This document shows, one piece after another, positions 5,541 through 31,875 of a DNA stretch of 36,101 nucleotides. The notes below the pieces were generated by a model, which searched no databases, was not told where the DNA came from, and was given only the letters and a program-made list of their open reading frames with translations. Location: positions 1 through 36,101 of the forward strand of contig JAQUOF010000005.1 in assembly GCA_028717225.1 (NCBI GenBank), written 5' to 3'. Positions within the stretch are counted from its first letter, which is position 1. Every line of letters begins with the position of its first letter. The DNA is from Patescibacteria group bacterium (GTDB lineage: Bacteria > Patescibacteriota > Patescibacteriia > UBA2591 > JAQUPP01). The position numbers and the translations under genes are program-made.

Positions 5541-7133
5541 TTATTTTTTTGGTTCATTTTCATCAATAATAGGGCCATCCGAAAAAATTTCGGTTATTGG
5601 AATTTCTATGACATTCGCCCATTTATAACCTAATTTTCCAAAAATATCTCCGGATTTAAAAGCTCTTTTGCTGCCGCTTTCAATTAAATAAACCGCCGGA
5701 CTATTCGGATATTTTATTAAAGTGCCGTCCGGCCTTGAGGCAACAGGTGCAGACGGAACAATAAATTGAAAACTGTTAATCAGTAATTTAAAAGTAGCTT
5801 TAAAATTAGCTTCTTTTTCCGTGCCGACATTATAAGAAATCACATAAACATTTTCATCTTTGGAAATATAAATTGTCAAATGATCGGAACTCCAAAGAGC
5901 CGGTTGATTATTGACAGTAATTGTAGTTAATAAACCTTTTTCCGTTGTCGGAGATTGTTTAGAATACCAATCAATCAAAGACAATTGATCCGGATTTTTT
6001 TCCACGCTCACGCTGAAAAATTCTCCGGTATTGGTGATTACCAAAACTTCTTCATTGTTGGTTTCCGGAATTGCCCTTGTTATCCATGAAGACGGATAGA
6101 AAAAACTGTAGGAGAAAGTTGAGTTGGTGTAAATATTTACCAAACCGGCGGCTGAAAGTTTATTCTCTCCCGCTTGCAACGGATCGGTTAAATTAACTAT
6201 TTCCTGGCCGTCGCTGATGCCATCGCCGTCAGTATCAGGATTACTAACACCGGTGCGATAAATCGTTTCTTCCGTATCAGTTAAACCGTCTTGATCAGAA
6301 TCAATGGTGGAAGAAATTTGCGGCGCTATTTGAAATATTTCTGTTGTAGGAGTTACTTTATTTTTCGGAACGATTAAAGCAAAAGTATCGGACGGCAGAA
6401 GGTCCAGTTGAGCGGTAATTAAATTATTTTCCGCGTCTTGCACGCTTGATAAAGGAGTCCAAATATTATCTTTTAAATAACCCAAAACAATATCATTTTC
6501 CCAATTGCTTTCAACAATTTTATTATGGTAAAAAGCTCTTAGGGTTGCTGATTTTTGCAGAATGAGATTAGTGGATTGAATTTTATAAATTCCCCCAACA
6601 ACTTTATAATCATTAAAAACATCTGCATCGGTTACGGCCTGAGAAGTTAATTCAATTTTTAAATTCGGATCAACGGCTCCGGCAGGCAAATAAAATTCCA
6701 ACCAAGAAACAGTTTCACCTCCTTGATCTTTTATCTCTGCTTTTAAGGTCTGTTCAATTGAAGTATTCGCAGTTGGAATAGAAGGAGAATTATTATCTTC
6801 AGGTTGAGTAATTGCCGGAATTTGATTAATAACAGGAATATTTGGATGATAATTTGTTATCCAAAAATAAAATCCCAATCCTCCGCCGACAATAATAACC
6901 AAAAGGCATAAAATTAAAACAAGAGATTTATTTTTATCTTTTTTTGATAATTTGCGCTGGGCTTTGCGAAATTTTTCCGGCATAACATAAATCATTTCCC
7001 CCGTATTTCCATATTGAGTTACTTCTTCCATAATCTCCTTTTTAGCCGCAGCCGGAGGATTAGAAAAAATATCCTGCACTTCGGGAGTGTTTATTTTTTG
7101 AGGTTCCGGTTGTATAGGTGTTTCTTCTGGCAT
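5541..7133 (-). CDS. single-pass membrane protein with calcium repeats and shared C-terminal module
   Basis: The 530-residue protein has no secretion signal at its start. A cytoplasmic tail of about 70 residues, containing VQDIF near residue 20, leads to one helix (SLVLILCLLVIIVGGGLGFYF). The outer part has several segments: a ZU5-like beta domain (about 130-260), two thrombospondin-type-3-like calcium loops (DSDQDGLTDTEE and DTDGDGISDGQE), and a PsbP-like segment (SYSFFYPSSW onward). It ends in a module of about 55 residues (GTLIKYPNSPAVYLIESGSK) that recurs in the 2310-residue giant at 24943-31875. It sits 14 bases after the 202-residue TSP3 membrane protein and 12 bases before mreC. An envelope scaffolding or adhesion role is inference; the exact function is unknown. 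Confidence 0.85.
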   Translation of the reverse strand: MPEETPIQPEPQKINTPEVQDIFSNPPAAAKKEIMEEVTQYGNTGEMIYVMPEKFRKAQRKLSKKDKNKSLVLILCLLVIIVGGGLGFYFWITNYHPNIPVINQIPAITQPEDNNSPSIPTANTSIEQTLKAEIKDQGGETVSWLEFYLPAGAVDPNLKIELTSQAVTDADVFNDYKVVGGIYKIQSTNLILQKSATLRAFYHNKIVESNWENDIVLGYLKDNIWTPLSSVQDAENNLITAQLDLLPSDTFALIVPKNKVTPTTEIFQIAPQISSTIDSDQDGLTDTEETIYRTGVSNPDTDGDGISDGQEIVNLTDPLQAGENKLSAAGLVNIYTNSTFSYSFFYPSSWITRAIPETNNEEVLVITNTGEFFSVSVEKNPDQLSLIDWYSKQSPTTEKGLLTTITVNNQPALWSSDHLTIYISKDENVYVISYNVGTEKEANFKATFKLLINSFQFIVPSAPVASRPDGTLIKYPNSPAVYLIESGSKRAFKSGDIFGKLGYKWANVIEIPITEIFSDGPIIDENEPKK

Positions 7134-7788: not shown

Positions 7789-10700
7789 TTATTTTAAAAC
7801 AACGCCGCCCATTTCGTTGGTCCATGGGTCCTTTTTTGTATTCTCAAGAATCGGCCCGTAGACAGAATTAAAACATTTATAAACATTTGAACTATAACCA
7901 AATACTTTTTGCTGACATTTGGTCGTCCAACCGCACAAATAATGGGCTTCGCAATCTTTTTGAATTCTATAATCATTGCAGCCCATTAACCAATTTTTTA
8001 AACCTGTTTCAAGATTTAAATACAAACGATAATCCGCGCCGCTGTCTGTAACCATATATTGATAAACTTGCGAATTGGCCGGACACTCATAAATACTCTT
8101 ACTTTGATTATAACAGGTTCCGCCCCATTGGCCAGCATCGCTCTCGGCGCAAGTACCAACAAATTGATTAGTCGGATCATCTGACATATTTGAAATAAAT
8201 TGCCCTTGGGGATTTTTCCAAGAAGGCCATTTGGAAACGGTCATTCCTTTTATAAAACTGCCTGATTCAAGTTTTGGATAATAACCATTGGTTAATTTAT
8301 AATCTGTCAATTTTTGACTCATTGTTCTGATATCCTGAATACGAACTAAATCTCTCTGAATTTTAGCTTTATCATCTTGAGAAATTAAATAGTTGCCTTG
8401 AGCGTCTTTATTGGCATTAAATTGCCAATACTTAACCAATTGATTATAGATATTAATTGTTTCCGGAGTATAATTATTAGTATGTGAAATAAGATAAATT
8501 AAACCTTTAATATTATCTTTATTATTATCAGTGTTGGTTGCGCCGACATAAACTGTTTGTTCGTCTTGCACCGCCTTATAACCGTCCACTGTTATATTAG
8601 ACAGCGAACCATTGGGATTGGGCGCCATATTATACCATTCGGAAGGAATCAAATAATCCTGATTTTTAAAAACTTGAAGACCAATTTTATCATTATCAAG
8701 GGTAAAGAAAAATTGTTTAACCAAATTGCCAGTAGTACCTAATGTTTCTTTTGTCAAAATAAGATTCGGCAAAGACGGGAAATTTTGATATTCAGTTGCT
8801 GATTTTCCTTTTTCCAGTTGAACATTAGTCATATAAATGACATCATTTTTTACAGAGCCGGACCACAATATACCTACCTTAATAGCCGTATCATTGGCTC
8901 CTGTAGTAAAAGTATTGGAAATTTTAGCCAAAGTGTCAACAGGAATGGCAGCTCCATACCAAACTAAATTAGTATAAGAAGAAGCATTTTTACCTTGAAC
9001 ATAAATATACGCTTGAGCTGATCCCGTCCTATATGCCGCCATAGATACGGTATATTGCGTATTTGGAAAGACCGTAATCCAATTTGCGGAAATTACTCCG
9101 GGCGTGCTTCCGGATTTATTATTTGTTGCTTTCAAAACATTATAATTTGATTTTTTAACAGTTGAAATACTTACTTGCTGATTAGCACTCCAACCATTTA
9201 CACCATCAGACATAGCGCCGTTTAAAACTAAATTTTTCCCTGAATTTCCTCGGCAATACTGCAATTTAAAATTAGTCGCTGAATCTTCAAACTTCCACGG
9301 AAATTCGCAAAGGAAAACTTTGGCTTGAGCCGTGGCTGAAAAACTTTTACCAATATCCGATTTGGAAGTATCTGTAATTTTGGCTGTAACTTTAATTTTT
9401 GAATCACCATTTTGATTTTGAGCCGTGGCTGTTTGCGATGAATTATTGCTGATCGGCACCAAAACCACATTTGGTTTTGAAGAATCCCAAGACCAAGTCC
9501 AATCATAATCAGAAACGCCGTGAATTTCGGCTCCCTTATTATCAAGGGCTTTTGCTGAAAATTTTACTGTTGAATCTTTTTTATAAAACTCCACTGATGT
9601 TGAAGAAATAATTGGTTTTCCCGGATCTGTATTCGCAGGATTTACCGTGTCACTTACCTCTTCCGCAGATATTTCAACTTTGCTTAATTTACAAATATCC
9701 GCGCCGGTGTTAAATGTCCAAGAATTATTATCCGCCATTTCAACGCCATATTGACTTTTTACGACATTTTGTTTACCGGCAATTCCTTCTTTACCGGAAA
9801 TTTCCACTTGATAAGTACAAACACCGCTTGCATCCAATAAACCGGAATTTATATAAACCGTAGTTTGTTTTGTGGTATTATTATCAACCGCGGAAATATC
9901 CGCTTTTAAATCATAAATAACTGTTTTCCCCGCCTCAACTTTTTTCAGAAAAATATTTTTTAAATTATTGAAAAATCTGACAAAAATATTATTTTTCTCC
10001 AAACTGGCCGCAACAGGACAATATTTATAAAGTTTAATTGTGTCTGGATTAAGCGTAGTTCTATCCATTAATTGGTCAAAAGTGGCGGAAATAACGGTAT
10101 TGCGGCAAACATCAATCGCTTTGTCTGTCGGTTTTGTATTATTAACAATCGGCTGGGTGGCGACGATTAAATGAGAGCTACTGGAGACCGGTTGATCTCC
10201 GGCAATTGTTGTACTCACAGTAATATCTGTTTCGCCCAATTTTTTTGAAGTAGCAATATTATTATAATCAGTACTTGCTTCAATTGCGGCTACAGTCTTA
10301 TCAGAGGACCCCCAAGAATACTGACCATTATAATCTTCGGGGTTTAAATAATTACAATTGGCAGTATAAATTTCCGTGTGATATGGCTGCGTAGCCGGAT
10401 GAGTTATTTGATTTACTCCCGCTGGATTAAGACAAATTTTTTTCAGAGAACAATTATCATTAGTTGCGATAAACATCCAAGTATAATCATCATTTGGCGT
10501 TCCATCTTGAACACCATTTTTGTTTTTGTCCAATTCCAATCCAAACTTATCTTTTATGCCATTCGGTCCGCTTTTTAAAGTTACGCGGTAAATTATATTT
10601 TTCTCCAACACAGCAGCTGGTTTAAAATAAAAACCGTCTTTTTCAATCGTAAAATCGCCTTTTATTTTATTGCTGTTATCGCTCGGACATTGAGAATTAT

Positions 10701-13700
10701 TAAAATCACCAGTGCCGCATTTTTGAATTATTATATTATCCGTGGCGCTGGTCGTATCCATCGCCACTTCCCGATTAAATTTAACCCTAATCTGCGCTTG
10801 AGTGCAGGCGTCTGTGGATTGATGGGCCGGTGAAGGAGATTGTCCGCCCAAACTGCAATTATCACAGTCAGTTCGTTCTTCAACTTGTAATAATTCTTTA
10901 GGCGAAAATTTTAACAAAGCGCAAGTATTTTTCGTCAGACAAGATATATCTTCAACCGCAGCTTTAATTAAAGTTTGTCCATATTTCCCTAAAGGAGTAG
11001 CAATAGTGGACAAACCGCTTGATGGCAAGACATTGGCAATACCGGCATCTTGAGAACTCCAATCAAATTTATCCACGCAAACCGGACGGCTGCCTGAATC
11101 CAAAGCAGAAGCAGTAAACTTTATTGTTTGATTTGATTCATTAAGCGCAGCCGGATTTGTCGGATCAACTTTGATTGTTGCGATATGACACATTCCATTT
11201 CCGGTTTTAAAAGTCCAATCAGTATCGCTTATTGAAACTCCCATTTTGCTTCTGGCACCGCTTCCATTAACTCCGCCTTTAATCCATATTTTATAAGTAG
11301 AATTTTGATTTAACAGACAATTAAAAGGATAAAAATAGACATTTGTTTCTTTTTTGACATTATCATCAACACTGACGATTTTTCCCTTAGCTTGATGAGG
11401 AGCTGAAATTGCTTCATCTGTTAAAGCTTTATTATAAATACGGACTTCGTCAATAATGCCTCTAAAATTAGAATAGTAATCACCATTAGAATCTGCCTCA
11501 GACTGCCGGCCAATTACCAAATTTCCAGCATTGACCAAATCTTTTGTTCCAAATGTTTTTGGTTGAATGCCGTCTAATTTTCCATTTACATAAATCTTAA
11601 GATTTTCTCCATCATAAGTTGCCGTAATTCTATAAAAAACATCTTCAGACAACCATGTTGAACCGCGTACATTGGTAAGATTAGGATGTGTTCCGGTACC
11701 AACTATAAAACCCGGCTGCCATTGACCGGTGTTTGGGCCATTTCTATATAAATCCAATACATAATTATTTTTTGCCGTAATACCCTCGTCCCCTTTGGCT
11801 AAAATAACCATTCTGTTTTTATCAGCAGTAGCGCCTTTCGAAATTTTTATCCAAACATCTAATGATAATTTTTGCAAATCCAAAGAAGAATTATCAGGAA
11901 CGGTTATATAATCACCGCCATTATCGCCTCTTGCGCCATCAAATTCTAATGCTTTTCCAAATTTTCCATCAACCCAAGTTGGTCCTGAAATTGTTCCGTT
12001 ATTTAATCCTTTTGTATCTTTGACAATTGATTCCGTTCCTTCATTAAAATGCCAAAGCGCCACCATTCCTTCTTCAATATCAGTCTCATAACCGGGATCA
12101 ACATCGGAAGACAATAATTTAATATTATTTTCATTTAAAGAATCGTGATCCATTAAATTATCAAAGGTCATTGAAATTGACGCATTCTTACAAACATTAA
12201 TTTCTCCGCCGGCAGGTGATTTGCTTGCATTTATTATAATTGGTTGGGGATGGCAACATTTATTCGGATCTAAAATACCGCAACCAACGCCGGTGCCGCA
12301 TTGAGCATCATTTTTGCATCCGCAGCATAAACCGCGGGGATTTTCATCCGAACCCTTACAATTGCCTTGATTAGCCAAACAAGTTAAACCGCCGGTGCCG
12401 CAAGAATTCTGTTGTTTGGGATTACAGCAACAACGGCAAGTGTCAGCACCGCTTTTACATTGATAGGGCGCCGAACAGCTGCCAAAATTATTTGGGCAAG
12501 ATACGTCTTGGCATTTATCTCCTGGTTTTGGCGTTCTGAATAAAACTTTAAAAGGCAAACCATTGCTTGTACCGTTGGAATTTTTTATTACCACATCACC
12601 GGTTTGAGTATCAACTGGAACCAATACGTCCCTAACTTGCGTATCAGACCAATTTGCTTCTGAAAAAGCAGCGGCTGATTGATTATAAAAAATTATTTTG
12701 CTGTCAATATTTTTTGCGCCGAATCTTAAACCGTTAAAACTGACTTTTGTTTCACTTGGATCGCCCTTAGGATAACCGCTGGAAGGATTTATGGATAAAA
12801 GACACGGACCGGTGGATTCGCTGTTATCATCAACCAAGAATCTGTCCCAACTCACGGTTTCTGATTTACTGGTATCGTCATAAGTAATCCCCACTCTAAC
12901 GCCCAATGAATCTGAAATATCAGTTGCCGGATCGCCAAAAACCGCAGGAATAGTTGTGGTGATAAAATCCGGACCGGATGATTCTACGGTTGCATTTATT
13001 GGTCCGTCTTCTCCATTTATTCTGGGTTGAGCGGGCAAAACAACCGGATATTTGTCATCAAATTGGAATGTAGTTATAGCCGCCTTACGACTGGCAGTGC
13101 CTTGAAAACAACGGCCAAAAACAGTCACGCAACTTTTTCGTGAACCGGAATCAGGCGTTACTCTGTAAATTACCGGCGAACAAGCGCATTTGGTTAAATC
13201 AGTGGTTGTGAAATCCCATTTTTTGCCAAGCGTATTTTGATCAACGTCCATTACCAAATCAGTGGTTACATTTATAGAATATGTAGCAGCAGTCAAATTA
13301 TTATTTAATTCAATTTCAAAAACTTTAAATTGAGTGGAGATATTGTCAACATCAGCATCCATAACTTTAATTTTACCAATTTGAGTGTTGCCATCCCTTG
13401 CCATAACCGCCGCTTCAAGTTCTTTTATTGGTTTAATAGAACTTTGAAAAACAATATTTCCCCCGATTTTACCTTGAATCGCAATTGTATTATTATACAT
13501 ACTGGTGGCGAAACTGACGCCAATCGGTTCATCCGGACAAACATTTTTATCTTTTGGCCAATAATCGCTGACTCCCGGAACAACATCATTTGTTTCAAAT
13601 TTCCAAGATTGCGGCACCGCCATTGAATTCCCGCACAAATCTTTAACATTGGCCACGGTAATTTTGTACCAAGTAAACGAATCAAGTAAATTAGGATTGA

Positions 13701-14937
13701 TTAAAGAAATAGAAAATCCTTGAAATTTATCTTTAACGATCAATATTTCCTCACCAACCGCCGTGCCTGATTCAGCATCTCGAGAAGCTAATTTTTCTAT
13801 TTTAAAACTGGTAGGAATAGGATGTCCATCTTTATCGGCTATTGTATCAAAATCTACGCTTTCGCTAAAATTCAAATCAATAATCGGCGCTCTGGAAACC
13901 CACTGATTCGGTTTTGCCGCATCATTGGTCGGATAAGTTTTATTCAAATAGGGTGCTTCGGTGTCTACAATATTATTGGTCGTAAAATCCCAAACAACAG
14001 TATCACCGTCCGAACAATGATATTTAGGTTTAAATCCGGTACTGCAACCACTTAAAGAACGACTGGGATTATAGGTATCCTTAATTGATTTTGGAATAAT
14101 AACATTATATTTAGTATCCGGATCCCAAATAGTTTGAGGAGTAAACAAAACCGAATTGCCGGAAATTTTCCAAACTCCCTGAATTGCTTGCTTTGTTGTA
14201 TCGGTATTTTTAACAACTTTTAAAGTTTGATCGGTTATTACCGCGCTTACTTCATTAGAATTTAAACTATAATTGAAAAATGGTTTTATTTTACTGCAGC
14301 GATAAACTTTTGCGTCTGGATTTGAAGTTATATTATCTGTGTCAAAAGAAGCTTCACCGCTCTTCATAAGCAGAGATGTGTAATCCGGAGAATAACGACA
14401 AGTACTTTCTGCAGGAATGGTACATTTGCAATTCGCATCAAATTTCATACCTATGCTGTTGTCGCAACAAGAATCAGGCGTGCAACAATTGCTTCCTACA
14501 CAATAAGTTGAAGGCCCCGTAACTTCCATAATTCTATTAATAATATAACTGCCGATGGCATAAGCCAAAACAATGATTAAAATGCCGATAATGCCGGCTA
14601 TCATTAATTTTTTGGCTTCGGAAATTTTCTTTTCATCTCCGCCCGAGGTCATCCATTTAATACCGCCTGCAATAATAATAACCGTTGCCGCCAATCCAAG
14701 TATGCCTAAAACAATTTTCATTATTCTGCCCATGGCCGTCGGAAGTTCTGTATTTGAATAACCTGACGCATTCTGGAAATTAGTCAGACCGTTATTCAAA
14801 TCTTGCGCTTTTGTCAAAACCGGATTTAAAACAAAAAATAAAAATCCGGATATCATTAATAAACACAAAAAACCTAAAAATATATTTTTTTTCAATTGTT
14901 TTTTGTTCACCCTTTGGCGAATTATTTCAATTTTCAT
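7789..14937 (-). CDS. giant surface protein: T4SS-pilin-like N-terminus, Ig/TIG/LamG domains, pseudopilin-like C-terminus
   Basis: This 2382-residue protein starts with a signal-type helix (residues 20-44, likely cleavage near TKAQ). Two hydrophobic helices at 70-135, joined by GGIKWMTSGGDEKKISEAKK, match the type IV secretion pilin family common in CPR bacteria. The exposed part contains several bacterial Ig-like (Big_5-type) domains between about 205 and 580, two IPT/TIG-like domains (about 587-795) and a cysteine cluster of 18 Cys in about 90 residues (806-895). Further on are a LamG/concanavalin-like domain (about 958-1175, IIDEVRIYNKAL), more Ig-like domains and a carbohydrate-binding-like beta domain (about 1900-2050). 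The last 250 residues resemble a GspG/type IV pilin head (LVRIQDIRTMSQKLTDYK, NGYYP, KDPW). It follows yqeY by 22 bases. Adhesion or cell contact is likely; the exact role is inference. Confidence 0.85.
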   Translation of the reverse strand: MKIEIIRQRVNKKQLKKNIFLGFLCLLMISGFLFFVLNPVLTKAQDLNNGLTNFQNASGYSNTELPTAMGRIMKIVLGILGLAATVIIIAGGIKWMTSGGDEKKISEAKKLMIAGIIGILIIVLAYAIGSYIINRIMEVTGPSTYCVGSNCCTPDSCCDNSIGMKFDANCKCTIPAESTCRYSPDYTSLLMKSGEASFDTDNITSNPDAKVYRCSKIKPFFNYSLNSNEVSAVITDQTLKVVKNTDTTKQAIQGVWKISGNSVLFTPQTIWDPDTKYNVIIPKSIKDTYNPSRSLSGCSTGFKPKYHCSDGDTVVWDFTTNNIVDTEAPYLNKTYPTNDAAKPNQWVSRAPIIDLNFSESVDFDTIADKDGHPIPTSFKIEKLASRDAESGTAVGEEILIVKDKFQGFSISLINPNLLDSFTWYKITVANVKDLCGNSMAVPQSWKFETNDVVPGVSDYWPKDKNVCPDEPIGVSFATSMYNNTIAIQGKIGGNIVFQSSIKPIKELEAAVMARDGNTQIGKIKVMDADVDNISTQFKVFEIELNNNLTAATYSINVTTDLVMDVDQNTLGKKWDFTTTDLTKCACSPVIYRVTPDSGSRKSCVTVFGRCFQGTASRKAAITTFQFDDKYPVVLPAQPRINGEDGPINATVESSGPDFITTTIPAVFGDPATDISDSLGVRVGITYDDTSKSETVSWDRFLVDDNSESTGPCLLSINPSSGYPKGDPSETKVSFNGLRFGAKNIDSKIIFYNQSAAAFSEANWSDTQVRDVLVPVDTQTGDVVIKNSNGTSNGLPFKVLFRTPKPGDKCQDVSCPNNFGSCSAPYQCKSGADTCRCCCNPKQQNSCGTGGLTCLANQGNCKGSDENPRGLCCGCKNDAQCGTGVGCGILDPNKCCHPQPIIINASKSPAGGEINVCKNASISMTFDNLMDHDSLNENNIKLLSSDVDPGYETDIEEGMVALWHFNEGTESIVKDTKGLNNGTISGPTWVDGKFGKALEFDGARGDNGGDYITVPDNSSLDLQKLSLDVWIKISKGATADKNRMVILAKGDEGITAKNNYVLDLYRNGPNTGQWQPGFIVGTGTHPNLTNVRGSTWLSEDVFYRITATYDGENLKIYVNGKLDGIQPKTFGTKDLVNAGNLVIGRQSEADSNGDYYSNFRGIIDEVRIYNKALTDEAISAPHQAKGKIVSVDDNVKKETNVYFYPFNCLLNQNSTYKIWIKGGVNGSGARSKMGVSISDTDWTFKTGNGMCHIATIKVDPTNPAALNESNQTIKFTASALDSGSRPVCVDKFDWSSQDAGIANVLPSSGLSTIATPLGKYGQTLIKAAVEDISCLTKNTCALLKFSPKELLQVEERTDCDNCSLGGQSPSPAHQSTDACTQAQIRVKFNREVAMDTTSATDNIIIQKCGTGDFNNSQCPSDNSNKIKGDFTIEKDGFYFKPAAVLEKNIIYRVTLKSGPNGIKDKFGLELDKNKNGVQDGTPNDDYTWMFIATNDNCSLKKICLNPAGVNQITHPATQPYHTEIYTANCNYLNPEDYNGQYSWGSSDKTVAAIEASTDYNNIATSKKLGETDITVSTTIAGDQPVSSSSHLIVATQPIVNNTKPTDKAIDVCRNTVISATFDQLMDRTTLNPDTIKLYKYCPVAASLEKNNIFVRFFNNLKNIFLKKVEAGKTVIYDLKADISAVDNNTTKQTTVYINSGLLDASGVCTYQVEISGKEGIAGKQNVVKSQYGVEMADNNSWTFNTGADICKLSKVEISAEEVSDTVNPANTDPGKPIISSTSVEFYKKDSTVKFSAKALDNKGAEIHGVSDYDWTWSWDSSKPNVVLVPISNNSSQTATAQNQNGDSKIKVTAKITDTSKSDIGKSFSATAQAKVFLCEFPWKFEDSATNFKLQYCRGNSGKNLVLNGAMSDGVNGWSANQQVSISTVKKSNYNVLKATNNKSGSTPGVISANWITVFPNTQYTVSMAAYRTGSAQAYIYVQGKNASSYTNLVWYGAAIPVDTLAKISNTFTTGANDTAIKVGILWSGSVKNDVIYMTNVQLEKGKSATEYQNFPSLPNLILTKETLGTTGNLVKQFFFTLDNDKIGLQVFKNQDYLIPSEWYNMAPNPNGSLSNITVDGYKAVQDEQTVYVGATNTDNNKDNIKGLIYLISHTNNYTPETINIYNQLVKYWQFNANKDAQGNYLISQDDKAKIQRDLVRIQDIRTMSQKLTDYKLTNGYYPKLESGSFIKGMTVSKWPSWKNPQGQFISNMSDDPTNQFVGTCAESDAGQWGGTCYNQSKSIYECPANSQVYQYMVTDSGADYRLYLNLETGLKNWLMGCNDYRIQKDCEAHYLCGWTTKCQQKVFGYSSNVYKCFNSVYGPILENTKKDPWTNEMGGVVLK

Positions 14938-24942: not shown

Positions 24943-27900
24943 CTATCTCGCAGCTAAAAATTTCGGCGTGACTAAATTTTCGGCAAAATCAGAAATTGTT
25001 CCGCCATCAGAATAAGTTTCGGCTTTGGAAATAATCATTACCGGCGCTTTGCTGTAACCATTATTGGTTAAAGCCTTGGCGGATAATTTATATTTCTTGC
25101 CGCCTTGAATCAGATAAATTTGAGAAGTTCCCGTATATTTAACCAATGTTCCGTTCGGATGTTTGGTTGTGGAGTCAATCGTATCACCCAAAGGATAATT
25201 GAATTTGGATAATAAATCATCCGGCACCCAAGTCACCAATTTCCATTTTGGATCATTGAAAAGTTTCTGATAAACAGCCGAGGATTTAACCGGTCTTAAT
25301 TTACCATCGGAAACCATGAATACCGCCGTAGCGTTCAAACCGTGAAGCGACGTAGTCTTGCCTCGGAATAATGAACCGTCGCGGAATATCATTGCCAAGC
25401 CTTCCGGATATTTTGCCAATTCTTCAGGAGTAACCTTCTTGACTGTTGAAAAATCAGACGGGAAACCCCAAGAATGATAAACATTATAATGCGGGAAGAC
25501 ATGGCTCTCGCCGTCTAAAATCATATAAACCGCGGTTTTCCGAGTAGTACAAGTCGGACAAATTACCAAATCTCTATTTTTAAGATTATAAGTAATAATG
25601 TCAGCCTCTTCTGATTCAGAAATAATTATTGAAGAAATTATTGAGGAGAGATTGAAATTATTATCTCTAAACCGAGCATAGACTGCTTTTTCTCCCTTGC
25701 CGATTGGCAATAACCAAGAACGAGTAGCTTGATATGGTTCCCAATTAATATTCGCGAAATCAGACGTATTGCTAATCATCATTTCCGTAGCGCCGGTAGC
25801 ATTAATCGTCAAGACGATATTTCTTAAAGTGGTTTTTGCTGCGCCGTTATTTATCTTTAAAGATAAATTTGTCGGGCCGACTATGCCGGCATTGCCGCTG
25901 CCACCCGTGCTTCCGCCTGTTGGCGTATCACCACCATCATCATCATCCTCTTCGCCGGCCGTAACAAATTTGCCTCCGGTAATACCGCCCGGCGTAAAGT
26001 GATTCGTGGTGACAATTATTACATTATTAGTCGCATCGCGAACAACTGATTTATAATTTTCCCATGTGTTTGTGGTATCATCAAAATACTTTGGCGTAAT
26101 ATCTTCCTCTGTATATCCGTTATCAGTAATTAAATCCGGATCATAAGGGAAAGTAATTTTTACATCGCTGTCAAACTGAGTAATTTCTTGACCATTGGAA
26201 TCTTTGGCCACAAAATCATAGTTAACGCCAAGCGGTTTATCTTTAGCATCCGGTTTAACCGACACCGTAGTTTGATTTTCCTCGCCAACAGTTGGTGTAA
26301 TGGTTACGGTAACCGTGCCGCTGCTGGCCAAAGCGCCTGCCGGAATTTCAAGTTTTAAACCATTTGTAAGTTCAATAGTTTTACTATCAGTAGCGCTAAA
26401 AGTTGTGGTCTTTGATTCAGGAACAGCAACGCCTGTCGTAACAAGAGTTAAATTTTGGGTTTGAGCGCCAACCACAGTTACAACTTCAGTCGCAGCGCTT
26501 TCATAAAGAATTCCATCAATTTTGGCCGTGGCTTTAACATTCCATGTTTCTCCGGATTTAACTTTTAAAGTATAAGTTCCGTCCGAAGCCATTGTGCCGG
26601 TTCCTTTATCATCAGACCAAGCTTGTATCATAGCCTGTTCTTTGGTCCCGTCCAAGGTAACTTCACCTGTAATAGTGGCATCTGATAAACTGAATTGAAG
26701 ATCCTTGCCGGTTACATTGGTATCACCAACCGTCACGCTAAGCAAAGGCGGGTTAATTAAATCTCTTGCATCCCAAGGCGGAATACCGGCGCCAATTTTG
26801 AAAGTGCCGCTGGTAGTATTTAAAGTATAAGTGCCATCATTGCTCGTAAAAGTACCAACACCCAAACCGCCCGGACCCTTAAAATCATCCTTGGTTGTTT
26901 CATCACCAAAATCAGCATAGACCCAAACACCAGCCATACCAACATCATCCGGATCGGTAATTGTACCGCTGATTGTTTTATCAAGTTTTTTAAGTTGGAA
27001 ATTGCGAGTAATTGTTTCTTCGGCAGCAACCACTGATTTTACATCTTCGGCTACTATTTTATATTTATCGTTATCATCTCCGAAATTCATCATCGGATCA
27101 ATGAAGGCGTCAATATACCAATTGCCTGCTGAAACTTTTAATGAATATTTATCCGTAACGCTGTTTGGAGCAAATTCTGTTTGCGACCAGCCGCCATTTT
27201 CTTTATCACCATTGATAAAAGCGCGAACTCCGGTCACAACCGTATCTGTTCCAGCAGTATAAGAACCGTCATCATTGGTATCAAGATAAAATTTACCTTC
27301 AATCGTGGCATTATTCGGCGCCACCACCAAATCAATTTCTTTGCATCCGGTTGTTGCGTCAGTGCAAGTATCATCTTCGCCGACAACAACAGTCTCAGTC
27401 GCAACTAAAGTATATTTGGAACCCGGAGGCGTATTTAAACCTAATTCATAACTGCCAAGCGGAACTTTAATTTCAGTATAGCCATTGGCTAATCCTCCGC
27501 CGGCAAAACCGCCCTTATCCATACCGGCTCCCATTGCTCCGCCGCCGCTGCCTGCCGTACCACCGGTTCCCGCGTCGCCGCTTCCGCCTTGCATCATCGC
27601 CGGATTACCGAAATCAATAAAATCATTAACTGTCGGATCAGTATCTTTAACCCAAACTCCGCCCCAAATATCAGAAATACGATCGCCATCAGCATCAACT
27701 ATATTTACTTTTAATAACCCGTCGGCTAATTTTAATAAGAAATCATTATTATCCGAAGTTTGATTGGCGGTTATTGTTACTTGTTGCGGACCGCCTTGAT
27801 AAATATATTGAGTTGACATTGGCATAATCATTACGCCCCAATTTCCTTCACTGACTATTAAATCAAATCTGCCGGTATTGGAATCGGTTTGTGTATTAGC

Positions 27901-30900
27901 CCAACCCGGTCCGTTCATTTGCCAAGCATTAACCATTACATTGCCAACCGCATTACCGGCTGAATCCGTAACAGTTCCTTTAATATGTGAATTTTTCGCT
28001 GTCAAAATAAGCGTACCTGCATCAGTGGTTTGAGTAGAAATGGCTTTAATTTTAACCGGAGCAGAACCGCCATAACTCTGGCCTTGTTCACCCCAATTTG
28101 GATTAGCCACTAAATCATAGGTACCGGCCGGAACTTTAAAAGTAAAACGTCCATCAGAATCAGTATTGGCACCATTGCCTCCACCCATCATACCGCCGCT
28201 ATTGGCCATTACCCAAGAATTGGCAATTGCCGTAGCTCCGGTTGGATCTTTAACCAAACCGGTAATAATAGCATCAGCCACTTTAACTTCAAAATCTAAT
28301 CCAACATCAAGAATAGTTGCGCCTCCCGGACATGTTCCTACTGTACCGCGGCATTCCGTGCTACTATCTTCAGTAAAAGTAATTTTCTTTTGCGGTTCAT
28401 TGTAAACCCAATCCGGCTGACCCATATTCCAGTCAGGATTCACTCCCAACCACCAGCCGCCACCGGCAAGTTTTAAAGTATATGTACCATTTGCATCAGT
28501 TAATGTTTCAAAAAATCCACCACCCATATCGCGATTAGCTTGAACGCGAGCATTGGCTACTACCGCACCGCTGCCCTTTTTAGTTACCGTGCCGGTTAAA
28601 GTTTTTGTTGGAGTGGTTAAATTAATTAAATTATTCGCCTGAGTCACATTTGCTAATTTAACCGTGCCTACGTCATTAACAATATCAACAGTCAAACCAC
28701 TTGGTTGAATCCAAGCTTTATCGCCGCCCGAAGGCAAATTAATTTCCATAGATAATCCGGTTGCATTAGTCAAGCCGCCGATTCGGAAATAACCCTGATC
28801 ATCAGTTGAAGCGCCGCCCTGATTTTGCCACATTTGATCATGAATCATAATCCAAGACCATTGAACCGGTTGATCATCTGCGGTTCCGGCAACACCGTCC
28901 ACACCCGGATTCATTACTCTTCCTGTAACTTGCGGCGTGCCAAGAATAAGTTTTCCATCAGTTCCATAAGTCGTGCCTAAATCTAAACTTGCCGTTCCGG
29001 CTGCCACAGCGGAAGAAATTGTAATATTAGAATATTTTTTTGTTGAATAATTGCGATAAACAGCCTGTTCTTCGGCCGAGCCCCAACGCGGAGCTTCAAT
29101 TTCTAAAGCATAAGTTCCGGCAGCTACACCGCCAAAAGAGAATTGGCCGTTTTGATTAGTATTTGTACCATACCAACCACCCGTAGTACCACCCTGCATT
29201 GGTCCTTCAATATGAAAATTAATCCAAGCATTGGCCACGGTTGTGCTGGTATTTGGAATAACAACCGTACCGGTAATATTCGGAGTGCTTAAAATTATGT
29301 TTTTTCTTCTGCTTGATTGAGAACTGGTAACAGTAACATTTTGAACAAGTTTTCTCCCGCAAGTAATATTTCCGCAACCATTCCAAGGATTTGCTTCTAT
29401 TTCATAAGTGCCAACTGCCACACCGCCAATAGCATAATTGCCGCTGGCATCTGTTTGCGACCATTGAGAACCGGACATTGAACCTTGTGATCGCATATTA
29501 ATGCCAACATTAGTTGCGCCAATATCAGGATAATTTATTGAATCATCGCATTCAGCTTGAGTCACATCTGAATTATCATCATGTTTTGGTTTGCAAACAC
29601 GACCGGTTAAACCATTAACTGACGGATCGCTTAATAAAACAAGTAAGCTATTATTAGCAATTGTTAAAGCAGTACCCGGATCTGTTGTTTCAGTAACAGT
29701 AGTGCCGGCAACATTTATTACCATGCCTTGCGGCGCGGCATAAAGACTGCCGTATTGAATATTAATATTTAAATCCCAGTTGCCTGTAGGAACATTTAAA
29801 CTGAATGTTCCGTCGCTTTGAGTGTTCGCGCCATAACACATACCCGGTATTTGATGAGGACAAAAATTAATCCAGGCTCCGCTTTGTCCAGTTGTCCCGG
29901 TTGGATCCTTAACCACACCGGTCACATTGGGCGCTGATAAAGTAAACGCATCATCATCAACACCATCAAGAGTATCAGCTTGATCTTTTAAATCATTAGA
30001 TGTAGTTGAAGTAATGGAAACGGAAAAATTTCCGCTGGCGCAAGCACTACCGCTTGCCGGTTGAATTTGAAGATTATAAGTACCAAGCGCCACGCCGCCA
30101 AGAGAGAAATTACCACTATCATCAGTATTTACGCCATACCAAGAACCATCTTTATTCATATTTATCCAAGCGCTTGTTGCTACGCCCCCGCATTTTACTT
30201 TTCCAAAAACATTTGGCAAAGCAAAAGTTTTGACTCCCAAATCAGTGATTTGCCCATCCGTAACATCAATGGCAAATTCCGCAGTTCTTGTTCTCGGATA
30301 ACTCCTGAAATCGCCGCTATATGGCGGCTCAAGTTCTAAAATATAATGGGTGCTATCTGTTGCTCCGCCAAAATAAGCCACGCCGTCAGCGTCAGCTTGA
30401 GCCCATTGTTGATAAGACCAATCCATAGTATGAAGACCGACACTGGCATAAGGCACCGGCAAACCCGGCTGAGGATTGCTTGCTGTAGGAGTATCACCTA
30501 AAGTACCAGGAGCCTTAATCGTTACCTTAACATTTTGAGCAGATAAATTAATATTAATGCCGGTCGCAGTTTGACCAGAAGTTAAACATTGAGTAGTTCT
30601 AACACTTTTGTATTGTAAAACCCTGTCTTGATAATCTTTGGGTCTGGCTTCAATTTCATAACATTGACTGCTGGTATCATTCGGGACATAAAGTTTCCAT
30701 GTTCCATTTGGACCGGTTGTTGTTCTTTGTTCATAATCCCATGTAAAAGGGCGCGCCACCACTTCTACGCCTTCCAGTAATGTTTCGCCACTTGGAGATT
30801 TAACTGTGCCCGAAAGAGTTGCTGTTCTAAAAGCTTGAGTGGTTAACTGCGTCACCGAACCAACCACAGCCGCTTGACTGCTTAATTTGGATGGCGCCAC

Positions 30901-31875
30901 ATAAGTCGCGCCGGCCGGTGTGCCGAATTGTATATTATAACTTCCCGTCGTATTTAAAACTAAAGCATATTTTCCATTAGAATGAGTTTCGCCCGGTACG
31001 ACATTTCCCATTTGTCCTGGTACGAAAGCTTCAACTTGAACCCTATCTATATCACTGGCTGTATCTGAAGTAAGATTGCCAATCAATACGGCTTGTGTAT
31101 TATTCCAAATCATAAACGGCCTGGAATTTGCTGAGAAACGGCGCGTATTTAAATCGCTAATCACCATGTCTACTTTGCCATTTAACCCTGTTGGAATTGT
31201 AGTGGTAAGCTCAGTAGTTGAAGCGGTTGCAGGAGTGGATGTTACACTTCCTCCATTAAAATTCCAAAAAATTTCTGTCGCATCAGTGGAGGTGGCAAAA
31301 TTAGAACCGATAATCGTTACTTCATCCCCGACATTGCCGCAAGGATAATTATAACAAGAATCGGAATCAATACTGTTGATTATATAATTAATAGTCGGAT
31401 CAATAGAAGGACCGACAACATCATTGGTCGTGAAATCTTCTATGGTTTGAGTTCCGGCTAAATTTTTAATATCTCCGGCTGTCATCTGCCAAGCTTGTCC
31501 TTCGGTTAATTTTAAATTTTTTAAACCATAAATTCTTAAACGATAGTCATTTTCACCCGCCTGAAAATTTTGAGTTGACATCTCGTAAGGACTGAATCTG
31601 CTTAATGTTCTGTCTGTTAGTCCCGCTCCTGTTTCAAAAATAAAATTACGCAAATCTGTCGCGTAATTGGTTGCACTTCCTAATTCGGTTGTTGAAGATG
31701 GATTTTGTTCTATGGAAAATTCTCTATTAAATGTAATTTCCGCAGAAGTTGTTGAAACCGTAATACCAGTCACGGCTATTGGTGCTAATGCACCCGCTAA
31801 TGTGGGCAGTCCCATTGACCACATAATAGTGGTAACTGTTACGAAAATTGAAAAAAACTTTTTTGTGTTGTTCAT
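24943..31875 (-). CDS. giant secreted surface protein with carboxypeptidase-regulatory-like repeats
   Basis: The 2310-residue protein has a signal peptide (1-30, ending near LAGALA). An Ig-like domain (about 32-150) and an IPT/TIG-like domain (about 165-260) follow. About a dozen carboxypeptidase-regulatory-like beta repeats fill 265-1815, each with a pattern like TDxxGxFxxGGVxxGTYxLE. Many repeats also carry an [AS]W[IV] strand (SAWINM, GAWINF, NAWINF, SWIMIH, NSWVMAN). A Gly/Met-rich loop lies near 1425-1460. A ZU5-like domain (about 1818-1965, LKLEIPAGAL) is followed by an acidic linker (GEEDDDDGGD). The last 205 residues hold three copies of a module (GTLVKYTGTSQIYLIQGGKK) also found once in the protein at 5541-7133. 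It probably forms a long extracellular fibre; attachment through the C-terminal modules is inference. Confidence 0.85.
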   Translation of the reverse strand: MNNTKKFFSIFVTVTTIMWSMGLPTLAGALAPIAVTGITVSTTSAEITFNREFSIEQNPSSTTELGSATNYATDLRNFIFETGAGLTDRTLSRFSPYEMSTQNFQAGENDYRLRIYGLKNLKLTEGQAWQMTAGDIKNLAGTQTIEDFTTNDVVGPSIDPTINYIINSIDSDSCYNYPCGNVGDEVTIIGSNFATSTDATEIFWNFNGGSVTSTPATASTTELTTTIPTGLNGKVDMVISDLNTRRFSANSRPFMIWNNTQAVLIGNLTSDTASDIDRVQVEAFVPGQMGNVVPGETHSNGKYALVLNTTGSYNIQFGTPAGATYVAPSKLSSQAAVVGSVTQLTTQAFRTATLSGTVKSPSGETLLEGVEVVARPFTWDYEQRTTTGPNGTWKLYVPNDTSSQCYEIEARPKDYQDRVLQYKSVRTTQCLTSGQTATGININLSAQNVKVTIKAPGTLGDTPTASNPQPGLPVPYASVGLHTMDWSYQQWAQADADGVAYFGGATDSTHYILELEPPYSGDFRSYPRTRTAEFAIDVTDGQITDLGVKTFALPNVFGKVKCGGVATSAWINMNKDGSWYGVNTDDSGNFSLGGVALGTYNLQIQPASGSACASGNFSVSITSTTSNDLKDQADTLDGVDDDAFTLSAPNVTGVVKDPTGTTGQSGAWINFCPHQIPGMCYGANTQSDGTFSLNVPTGNWDLNINIQYGSLYAAPQGMVINVAGTTVTETTDPGTALTIANNSLLVLLSDPSVNGLTGRVCKPKHDDNSDVTQAECDDSINYPDIGATNVGINMRSQGSMSGSQWSQTDASGNYAIGGVAVGTYEIEANPWNGCGNITCGRKLVQNVTVTSSQSSRRKNIILSTPNITGTVVIPNTSTTVANAWINFHIEGPMQGGTTGGWYGTNTNQNGQFSFGGVAAGTYALEIEAPRWGSAEEQAVYRNYSTKKYSNITISSAVAAGTASLDLGTTYGTDGKLILGTPQVTGRVMNPGVDGVAGTADDQPVQWSWIMIHDQMWQNQGGASTDDQGYFRIGGLTNATGLSMEINLPSGGDKAWIQPSGLTVDIVNDVGTVKLANVTQANNLINLTTPTKTLTGTVTKKGSGAVVANARVQANRDMGGGFFETLTDANGTYTLKLAGGGWWLGVNPDWNMGQPDWVYNEPQKKITFTEDSSTECRGTVGTCPGGATILDVGLDFEVKVADAIITGLVKDPTGATAIANSWVMANSGGMMGGGNGANTDSDGRFTFKVPAGTYDLVANPNWGEQGQSYGGSAPVKIKAISTQTTDAGTLILTAKNSHIKGTVTDSAGNAVGNVMVNAWQMNGPGWANTQTDSNTGRFDLIVSEGNWGVMIMPMSTQYIYQGGPQQVTITANQTSDNNDFLLKLADGLLKVNIVDADGDRISDIWGGVWVKDTDPTVNDFIDFGNPAMMQGGSGDAGTGGTAGSGGGAMGAGMDKGGFAGGGLANGYTEIKVPLGSYELGLNTPPGSKYTLVATETVVVGEDDTCTDATTGCKEIDLVVAPNNATIEGKFYLDTNDDGSYTAGTDTVVTGVRAFINGDKENGGWSQTEFAPNSVTDKYSLKVSAGNWYIDAFIDPMMNFGDDNDKYKIVAEDVKSVVAAEETITRNFQLKKLDKTISGTITDPDDVGMAGVWVYADFGDETTKDDFKGPGGLGVGTFTSNDGTYTLNTTSGTFKIGAGIPPWDARDLINPPLLSVTVGDTNVTGKDLQFSLSDATITGEVTLDGTKEQAMIQAWSDDKGTGTMASDGTYTLKVKSGETWNVKATAKIDGILYESAATEVVTVVGAQTQNLTLVTTGVAVPESKTTTFSATDSKTIELTNGLKLEIPAGALASSGTVTVTITPTVGEENQTTVSVKPDAKDKPLGVNYDFVAKDSNGQEITQFDSDVKITFPYDPDLITDNGYTEEDITPKYFDDTTNTWENYKSVVRDATNNVIIVTTNHFTPGGITGGKFVTAGEEDDDDGGDTPTGGSTGGSGNAGIVGPTNLSLKINNGAAKTTLRNIVLTINATGATEMMISNTSDFANINWEPYQATRSWLLPIGKGEKAVYARFRDNNFNLSSIISSIIISESEEADIITYNLKNRDLVICPTCTTRKTAVYMILDGESHVFPHYNVYHSWGFPSDFSTVKKVTPEELAKYPEGLAMIFRDGSLFRGKTTSLHGLNATAVFMVSDGKLRPVKSSAVYQKLFNDPKWKLVTWVPDDLLSKFNYPLGDTIDSTTKHPNGTLVKYTGTSQIYLIQGGKKYKLSAKALTNNGYSKAPVMIISKAETYSDGGTISDFAENLVTPKFLAAR

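Follow-up and report, generated by a model that had tools for sequence, protein, structure and literature searches.

The giant protein encoded at 7789-14937 carries an N-terminal VirB2-like T4SS pilin domain fused to a long arm of adhesin-type domains, and this fused pilin has a specific matched counterpart among the stand-alone pilins of its own genome, a relation that is new here. Taking the sequence comparisons together, the giant is best read, with modest confidence, as a secreted and membrane-inserted adhesin whose N-terminus would serve as a working VirB2-like pilin, most likely co-assembled with the third pilin of a four-gene array (pilin #3). The source organism belongs to the Patescibacteria, a very large group of tiny bacteria, and is probably host-dependent. 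The window, the whole stretch of DNA that was analysed, is 36,101 nucleotides long and is contig 5 of a 0.86 Mb draft genome.

Gene and domain layout

The open reading frame of the giant (7789-14937, minus strand) begins with ATG and encodes 2382 amino acids. Its features are as follows.

14806..14937, minus strand: signal peptide or first hydrophobic helix, residues 1-44 (hydrophobic peak 15-45; cleavage placed by eye between TKA and QD)
14746..14805, minus strand: mature N-terminal segment, residues 45-64, matched to the stand-alone pilin #3 of the same genome (33/34 identity over residues 45-78)
14524..14805, minus strand: VirB2-like T4SS pilin domain, residues 45-138, in which a loop rich in lysine and presumably cytosolic separates two TM helices (PF18895 E=1.7e-9; genome search match G000:C5:14542-14754 over cut-off)
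9298..14508, minus strand: ectodomain arm, residues 144-1880, with Big_5 and TIG repeats, a Cys-rich region (about 801-915), LamG and Ig-like linkers (Pfam; domain recurrence in orthologues)
12547..12807, minus strand: IPT/TIG domain, residues 711-797 (PF01833 E=2.2e-4, over cut-off)
11404..11925, minus strand: LamG/concanavalin-like domain, residues 1005-1178 (PF13385, Laminin_G_3, E=6.9e-23)
8803..9255, minus strand: weak carbohydrate-binding-like region, about residues 1895-2045 (only a sub-threshold CBM_4_9 match, E=0.0032, in orthologue L029)
8410..8805, minus strand: PsbP/Mog1-like domain, residues 2045-2176 (AF2 pLDDT 75; VIA Z 8.7 to LpqN 6e5d)
7987..8409, minus strand: GspG/type IV pilin head, residues 2177-2317 (T2SSG E=4.2e-4, hhalign 97.4%, AF2 pLDDT 85.9, Foldseek and VIA pilin matches)
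7789..7986, minus strand: Cys-rich C-terminal tail, residues 2318-2382, and stop (sequence; low confidence in the first structure model)

Hydrophobic peaks at residues 15-45, 65-99 and 104-140 fit a signal peptide and a two-helix pilin hairpin, and the sequence follows the pattern of a signal peptide, then two TM helices with a short charged loop, GGDEKKISEAKK. Pfam searches with the whole giant found six Big_5 stretches, a TIG domain and Laminin_G_3 in the arm, in agreement with the initial annotation, which had described a pilin part fused to a long arm with Ig, TIG and LamG domains. The carbohydrate-binding-like domain that was also proposed there is weak, as its entry in the list indicates. 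The arm is adhesin-like by its domain content and would lie outside the cell by its predicted topology, so that a pilin anchoring a long adhesive arm is the favoured arrangement. Inspection of the sequence found no LPxTG anchor in the giant, and searches of Pfam and NCBIfam gave no match to the PrgB family.

A second giant of 2310 amino acids is encoded at 24943-31875 of the window (minus strand). It has a signal peptide, a weak TIG match, many carboxypeptidase-regulatory/prealbumin-like repeats (PF13620 E=2.7e-43) and no pilin domain. The repeat at its end, by eye, also ends a 530-aa protein at 5541-7133. Next to the 2382-aa giant lie two small anchored proteins, and mreC/mreD/PBP2-like genes follow.

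The N-terminal pilin domain and the pilin genes of the genome

The first ~140 residues of the giant had been taken as VirB2/T4SS pilin-like, and the profile search bears this out. PF18895 (T4SS_pilin) matches residues 63-132 with E=1.7e-9 and 38.1 bits against a cut-off of 26.6, and matches below cut-off were obtained with TrbC/VirB2 (E=4e-5) and the NCBIfam Mbov_0395 pilin-like family (E=2e-6). An open frame of 137 aa in the same genome shares 66% identity with residues 19-138. The giant is not itself a stand-alone subunit, as ~2240 residues follow the pilin part. Sequence searches of solved structures with the pilin profile and the head profile returned nothing useful, and no solved pilin was matched.

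A profile search of the genome gave seven PF18895 matches over cut-off, comprising the giant, a four-gene T4SS-pilin array at C1:109-111 kb and two pilin-domain genes in a T4SS core locus at C1:21-30 kb, which also encodes PrgI, a TraG-type P-loop ATPase and a weak TraC/VirB4-N match. T4SS genes are present in the genome (G000:C1), with the array and the core on the same contig about 80 kb apart and the giant on another contig. The third gene of the array (L049:11388-11783, which is G000:C1:110387-110782) is pilin #3. The genome also encodes a PilB-type (type IV pilus) ATPase and three prepilins, and the prepilins with a GFxxxE motif are located away from the giant. One of the pilin-domain proteins at the core locus (L064:5299-6534) joins its T4SS-pilin domain to a VanY-like D,D-carboxypeptidase and is perhaps an enzyme that opens the wall while borne on a pilin. 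The hairpin is also fused to a Cys-rich protein.

Conservation of the fusion

Matches to the giant were found in 25 of the 26 genomes of the order; some of these are pilins only, and most order genomes encode a T4SS-pilin giant with a Big_5 arm. A chance fusion or an assembly artefact was rejected, since most order genomes share the layout. The class has many fused forms, with giants carrying the fusion across it, and the survey of CPR genomes places the fusion as a conserved feature of order and class rather than a one-off. Orthologues share several of the arm domains, arranged in a similar order, and the middle of the arm varies; for example, in the congeneric orthologue L029 LamG was not found and extra TIG domains are present. 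The orthologue in the congener G008 has 2978 amino acids. A scan of the collection with a smaller profile gave four loci, including ones in UBA4787, Kerfeldbacteria and a Parcubacteria group bacterium.

Other arrangements of the domain were observed in these genomes. A pilin-fused protein of ~650-930 aa stands beside a pilin-fused giant as a tandem pair in many genomes (L034, L038, L047, L086, L087, L088, L091), and by eye several class genomes have a histidyl-tRNA-synthetase-like gene beside the giant (L085, L086, L087). In another class genome, a T4SS-pilin domain lies inside an open frame of 14,266 aa (G110:C1:501430-501624, L129). Outside the class, pilin domains are found in long frames of 1243 and 1588 aa (G047:C1:505966 and G031:C86:11220, respectively), and long-frame pilin fusions may not be confined to the class.

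Matching of the fused pilin to one stand-alone pilin

Within the genome, residues 45-78 of the giant agree with pilin #3 in 33 of 34 amino acids, while 15 of the codons carry silent changes, and the two signal peptides differ at 16 of 22 aligned residues. The same kind of matching is seen in 14 genomes of the order, where the mature N-terminus of the fused pilin is 55% identical to the stand-alone pilin of its own genome, compared with 29% for shuffled pairs and 21% for fused pilins of different genomes (p<=5e-5). For the first TM helix, the values are 72% for own pairs and 56% for shuffled ones. A repeat with 19 other genomes of the class gave 57% against 47% over the whole pilin domain (p<=5e-5), and the own match ranked top in 12 of the 19 with the whole domain and in 4 of the 19 with the N-terminal segment alone.

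The two congeners G000 and G008 show how the two genes change together. Ten of 36 N-terminal positions differ between the genomes in the fused pilin and in its partner alike, and seven of these ten are the same residue pair in both genes, small counts from one pair of genomes; the co-variation case rests mainly on the many-genome tests. Array pilin #4 has no N-terminal difference between the same two genomes.

Matching of both the exposed N-terminus and the first helix points to a fused pilin that packs with pilin #3 or is recognised like it, and co-variation with one stand-alone pilin argues for a working pilin. The proposal of a pilin-type anchor that bears a long adhesive arm is favoured by domain content and topology, with the qualification that the anchor is probably not a passive one. 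An ordinary two-helix anchor, in which the hairpin was captured once to serve a surface adhesin and is unconnected with the T4SS, would be in keeping with the reuse of the hairpin in the VanY-like and Cys-rich fusions of the same genome and with the abundance of pilin-fused forms in the class. It gives no reason, however, for matching to one pilin of the own genome that peaks in the mature N-terminus, a part outside the helices, and it leaves the seven paired replacements in the congeners unaccounted for; this explanation is considered unlikely. Somewhat more doubtful is shared recognition without co-polymerisation, in which a third protein (an insertase, a protease or the assembly platform) or an outside threat (a phage or a host receptor) acts on a common N-terminal signature. 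The matching is concentrated in the exposed mature N-terminus, a segment with strong differences between genomes, as would fit a recognition tag, but it also reaches into the first TM helix, which is more natural for the packing of subunits.

The matching could also be a by-product of DNA events, either repeated gene conversion or the overwriting, separately in each lineage, of the giant's pilin end with a local pilin copy. In a tree of 96 pilin domains, the fused pilins do not form one clade (AU p=2.5e-5, 240 log-units), and one origin followed by descent alone was rejected for the fused pilin domain. Several fused pilins pair on this tree with the array pilin of their own genome, as repeated replacement would predict (G018 100/98, G017 99/87, G024 100/80, G009 98/86). 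Silent sites speak against such events, as 40-65% of conserved residues are silently changed in 14 of 14 genome pairs, where saturation, estimated for this genome, is ~50%; recent gene conversion is disfavoured by this near-saturation. In the congeners, 34 of 67 N-terminal sites are silently changed between fused and stand-alone pilin, compared with 23 of 96 in the orthologues outside the N-terminus (p=8e-4). Fused-partner silent differences in the congeners amount to 47-55%, against a random level of ~50% and 24% in the orthologues outside the N-terminus. Because silent divergence is at the random level and exceeds that of the orthologues, recent gene conversion is unlikely and matched selection is favoured. 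Any conversion or replacement would be old and subsequently held by selection, and DNA events as the source of the matching are improbable.

The C-terminal module

The last ~250 residues had been likened to GspG, and this is upheld for a pilin-type head at about 2177-2317 by T2SSG, hhalign and fold, whereas residues 2045-2176 form a separate PsbP-like domain. The 'KDPW' named as a head motif was misplaced, since it lies near residue 2370, outside the head; the DP motif of the head is DDPTNQF, near 2253. In the whole giant, T2SSG (PF08334) matches residues 2185-2255 weakly (E=0.044), and with the isolated tail the match reaches E=4.2e-4 and 20.8 bits, just under the cut-off of 21. Profile-profile comparison of the head with CPR prepilins (hhalign) gave 97.4% and E=1.1e-11 over 102 columns.

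Matches by VIA for the whole C-terminal module spanned the PsbP-like part only, and the head was hence modelled alone. Its AlphaFold2 model (pLDDT 85.9) is built from a helix of 31 residues, a long loop and a beta hairpin, a fold that matches pilins and pseudopilins and not an unrelated fold. The first four Foldseek matches are GspG and type IV pilins with weak E-values (best 3.3), and among the matches listed by VIA-align 2, nine of nine are pilins or pseudopilins (GspG), with Z 2.6-4.4. The head was assigned because every listed VIA match is a pilin, together with the sequence evidence. The PsbP-like domain has its best VIA match in LpqN 6e5d (Z 8.7, 3.0 A over 109 residues), and Foldseek gave no significant match for the model of the whole module. 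Sequence inspection found neither a GFxxxE class III signal nor a polymerising N-terminal half-helix before the head, which makes it a pilin-type head and not a pilin.

The module was found in 20 of 22 sampled class genomes, mostly in frames of 2400-4700 aa, and in 3 of ~265 genomes outside the class, all three being true GFTLIEL prepilins that match the head only; the module is nearly class-restricted. In G016, G015, G019, G021 and G012 it is encoded separately, by a gene just downstream that has a leader of its own, and in G010 and G011 the gene is split exactly between the PsbP-like domain and the head. Split-gene head modules carry a Sec-type leader and not a class III signal. The occurrence of the module in fused and in neighbouring-gene versions points to two parts that work together.

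Proposed arrangement of the giant

In the favoured model of a working pilin, the signal peptide would be cleaved and the hairpin would span the cytoplasmic membrane, the loop facing the cytosol and both termini the exterior, a topology predicted from sequence, thereby exposing the arm of ~2240 residues. The T4SS pilin machinery would recognise the hairpin in the same way as array pilin #3, with which the fused pilin most likely co-assembles, and the arm would be displayed on or at the end of a T4SS pilus or on a pilin platform. The Ig, TIG and LamG domains could then grip another cell, with the PsbP-like and pilin-head module as a putative soluble recognition or docking module, alternatively supplied by the secreted protein of the next gene. 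The bulk of 2240 additional residues may keep such a pilin from polymerising anywhere but at an end, which counts against this model, as do the ~80 kb between pilin array and T4SS core, the place of the giant on another contig, the weaker result for the N-terminal segment alone in the class-wide repeat, and the lack of a sequence match to a solved pilin.

A further possibility is that the giant couples two machines, with its N-terminus in a T4SS pilin assembly and its GspG-like module docked on a type IV pilus, which on retracting would draw the T4SS onto the partner cell. This idea draws on the PilB-type ATPase and prepilins of the genome and on the retention of the head module across the class, and it is very improbable.

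Comparison with known systems

Cultured Patescibacteria grow on other cells, and for one of them a T4SS with VirB2-like pilins is an essential part of this life (PMC10633639, PMC12857230). Excerpts of two studies describe Patescibacteria T4SS with VirB2-like pilin arrays of 2-11 genes (PMC12102498; PMC10633639), one such array being essential for epibiotic growth of a cultured Saccharibacterium (PMC10633639). These pilins have the same domain as the giant (PF18895) and are treated in the excerpts as small stand-alone subunits; neither a giant-adhesin fusion nor matching of fused and stand-alone pilins is described there (PMC12102498; PMC10633639). In the open-access literature, PF18895 or T4SS_pilin was found only in PMC12102498, and the excerpted text does not describe a pilin-adhesin fusion. 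The pilin and adhesin domains are known, and their conserved combination is apparently undescribed. The matching indicates the likely partner among the array pilins, on which no earlier work was found able to say.

Other giants of CPR bacteria, such as those of Vampirococcus lugosii, are likewise very large membrane proteins with adhesion-type domains that are thought to attach to the host; according to the excerpted account they have WD40, PKD and fibronectin-type domains, and a pilin N-terminus is unmentioned there (PMC8080830). The head of the giant (residues 2177-2317) shares fold and sequence with GspG and type IV pilin heads (PF08334, T2SSG). It differs from GspG in being without the class III signal and the polymerising half-helix, and in its place, which is the end of a giant or close to it, the interior of a giant, or a distinct protein with Sec-type secretion.

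PrgB-type cell-wall adhesins of Gram-positive conjugation are proposed to join donor and partner cell for the monoderm T4SS (PMC12857230), and no PrgB-type adhesin was found in Patescibacteria according to the excerpted report (PMC12102498). The proposed role of the giant is the same, whereas PrgB has an LPxTG/sortase anchor and other domains (PMC12857230). Judged from its sequence, the giant is a candidate for the kind of adhesin that was reported as absent in Patescibacteria (PMC12102498), and for the grip of a T4SS on its partner cell, a conserved, pilin-built giant adhesin is a concrete and testable candidate. If the giant caps a pilus, it would be the equivalent, likened by role alone, of the pilus-tip protein VirB5 as a tip-adhesin part; VirB5 is a separate protein, whereas the arm of the giant is fused to its pilin (PMC12857230).
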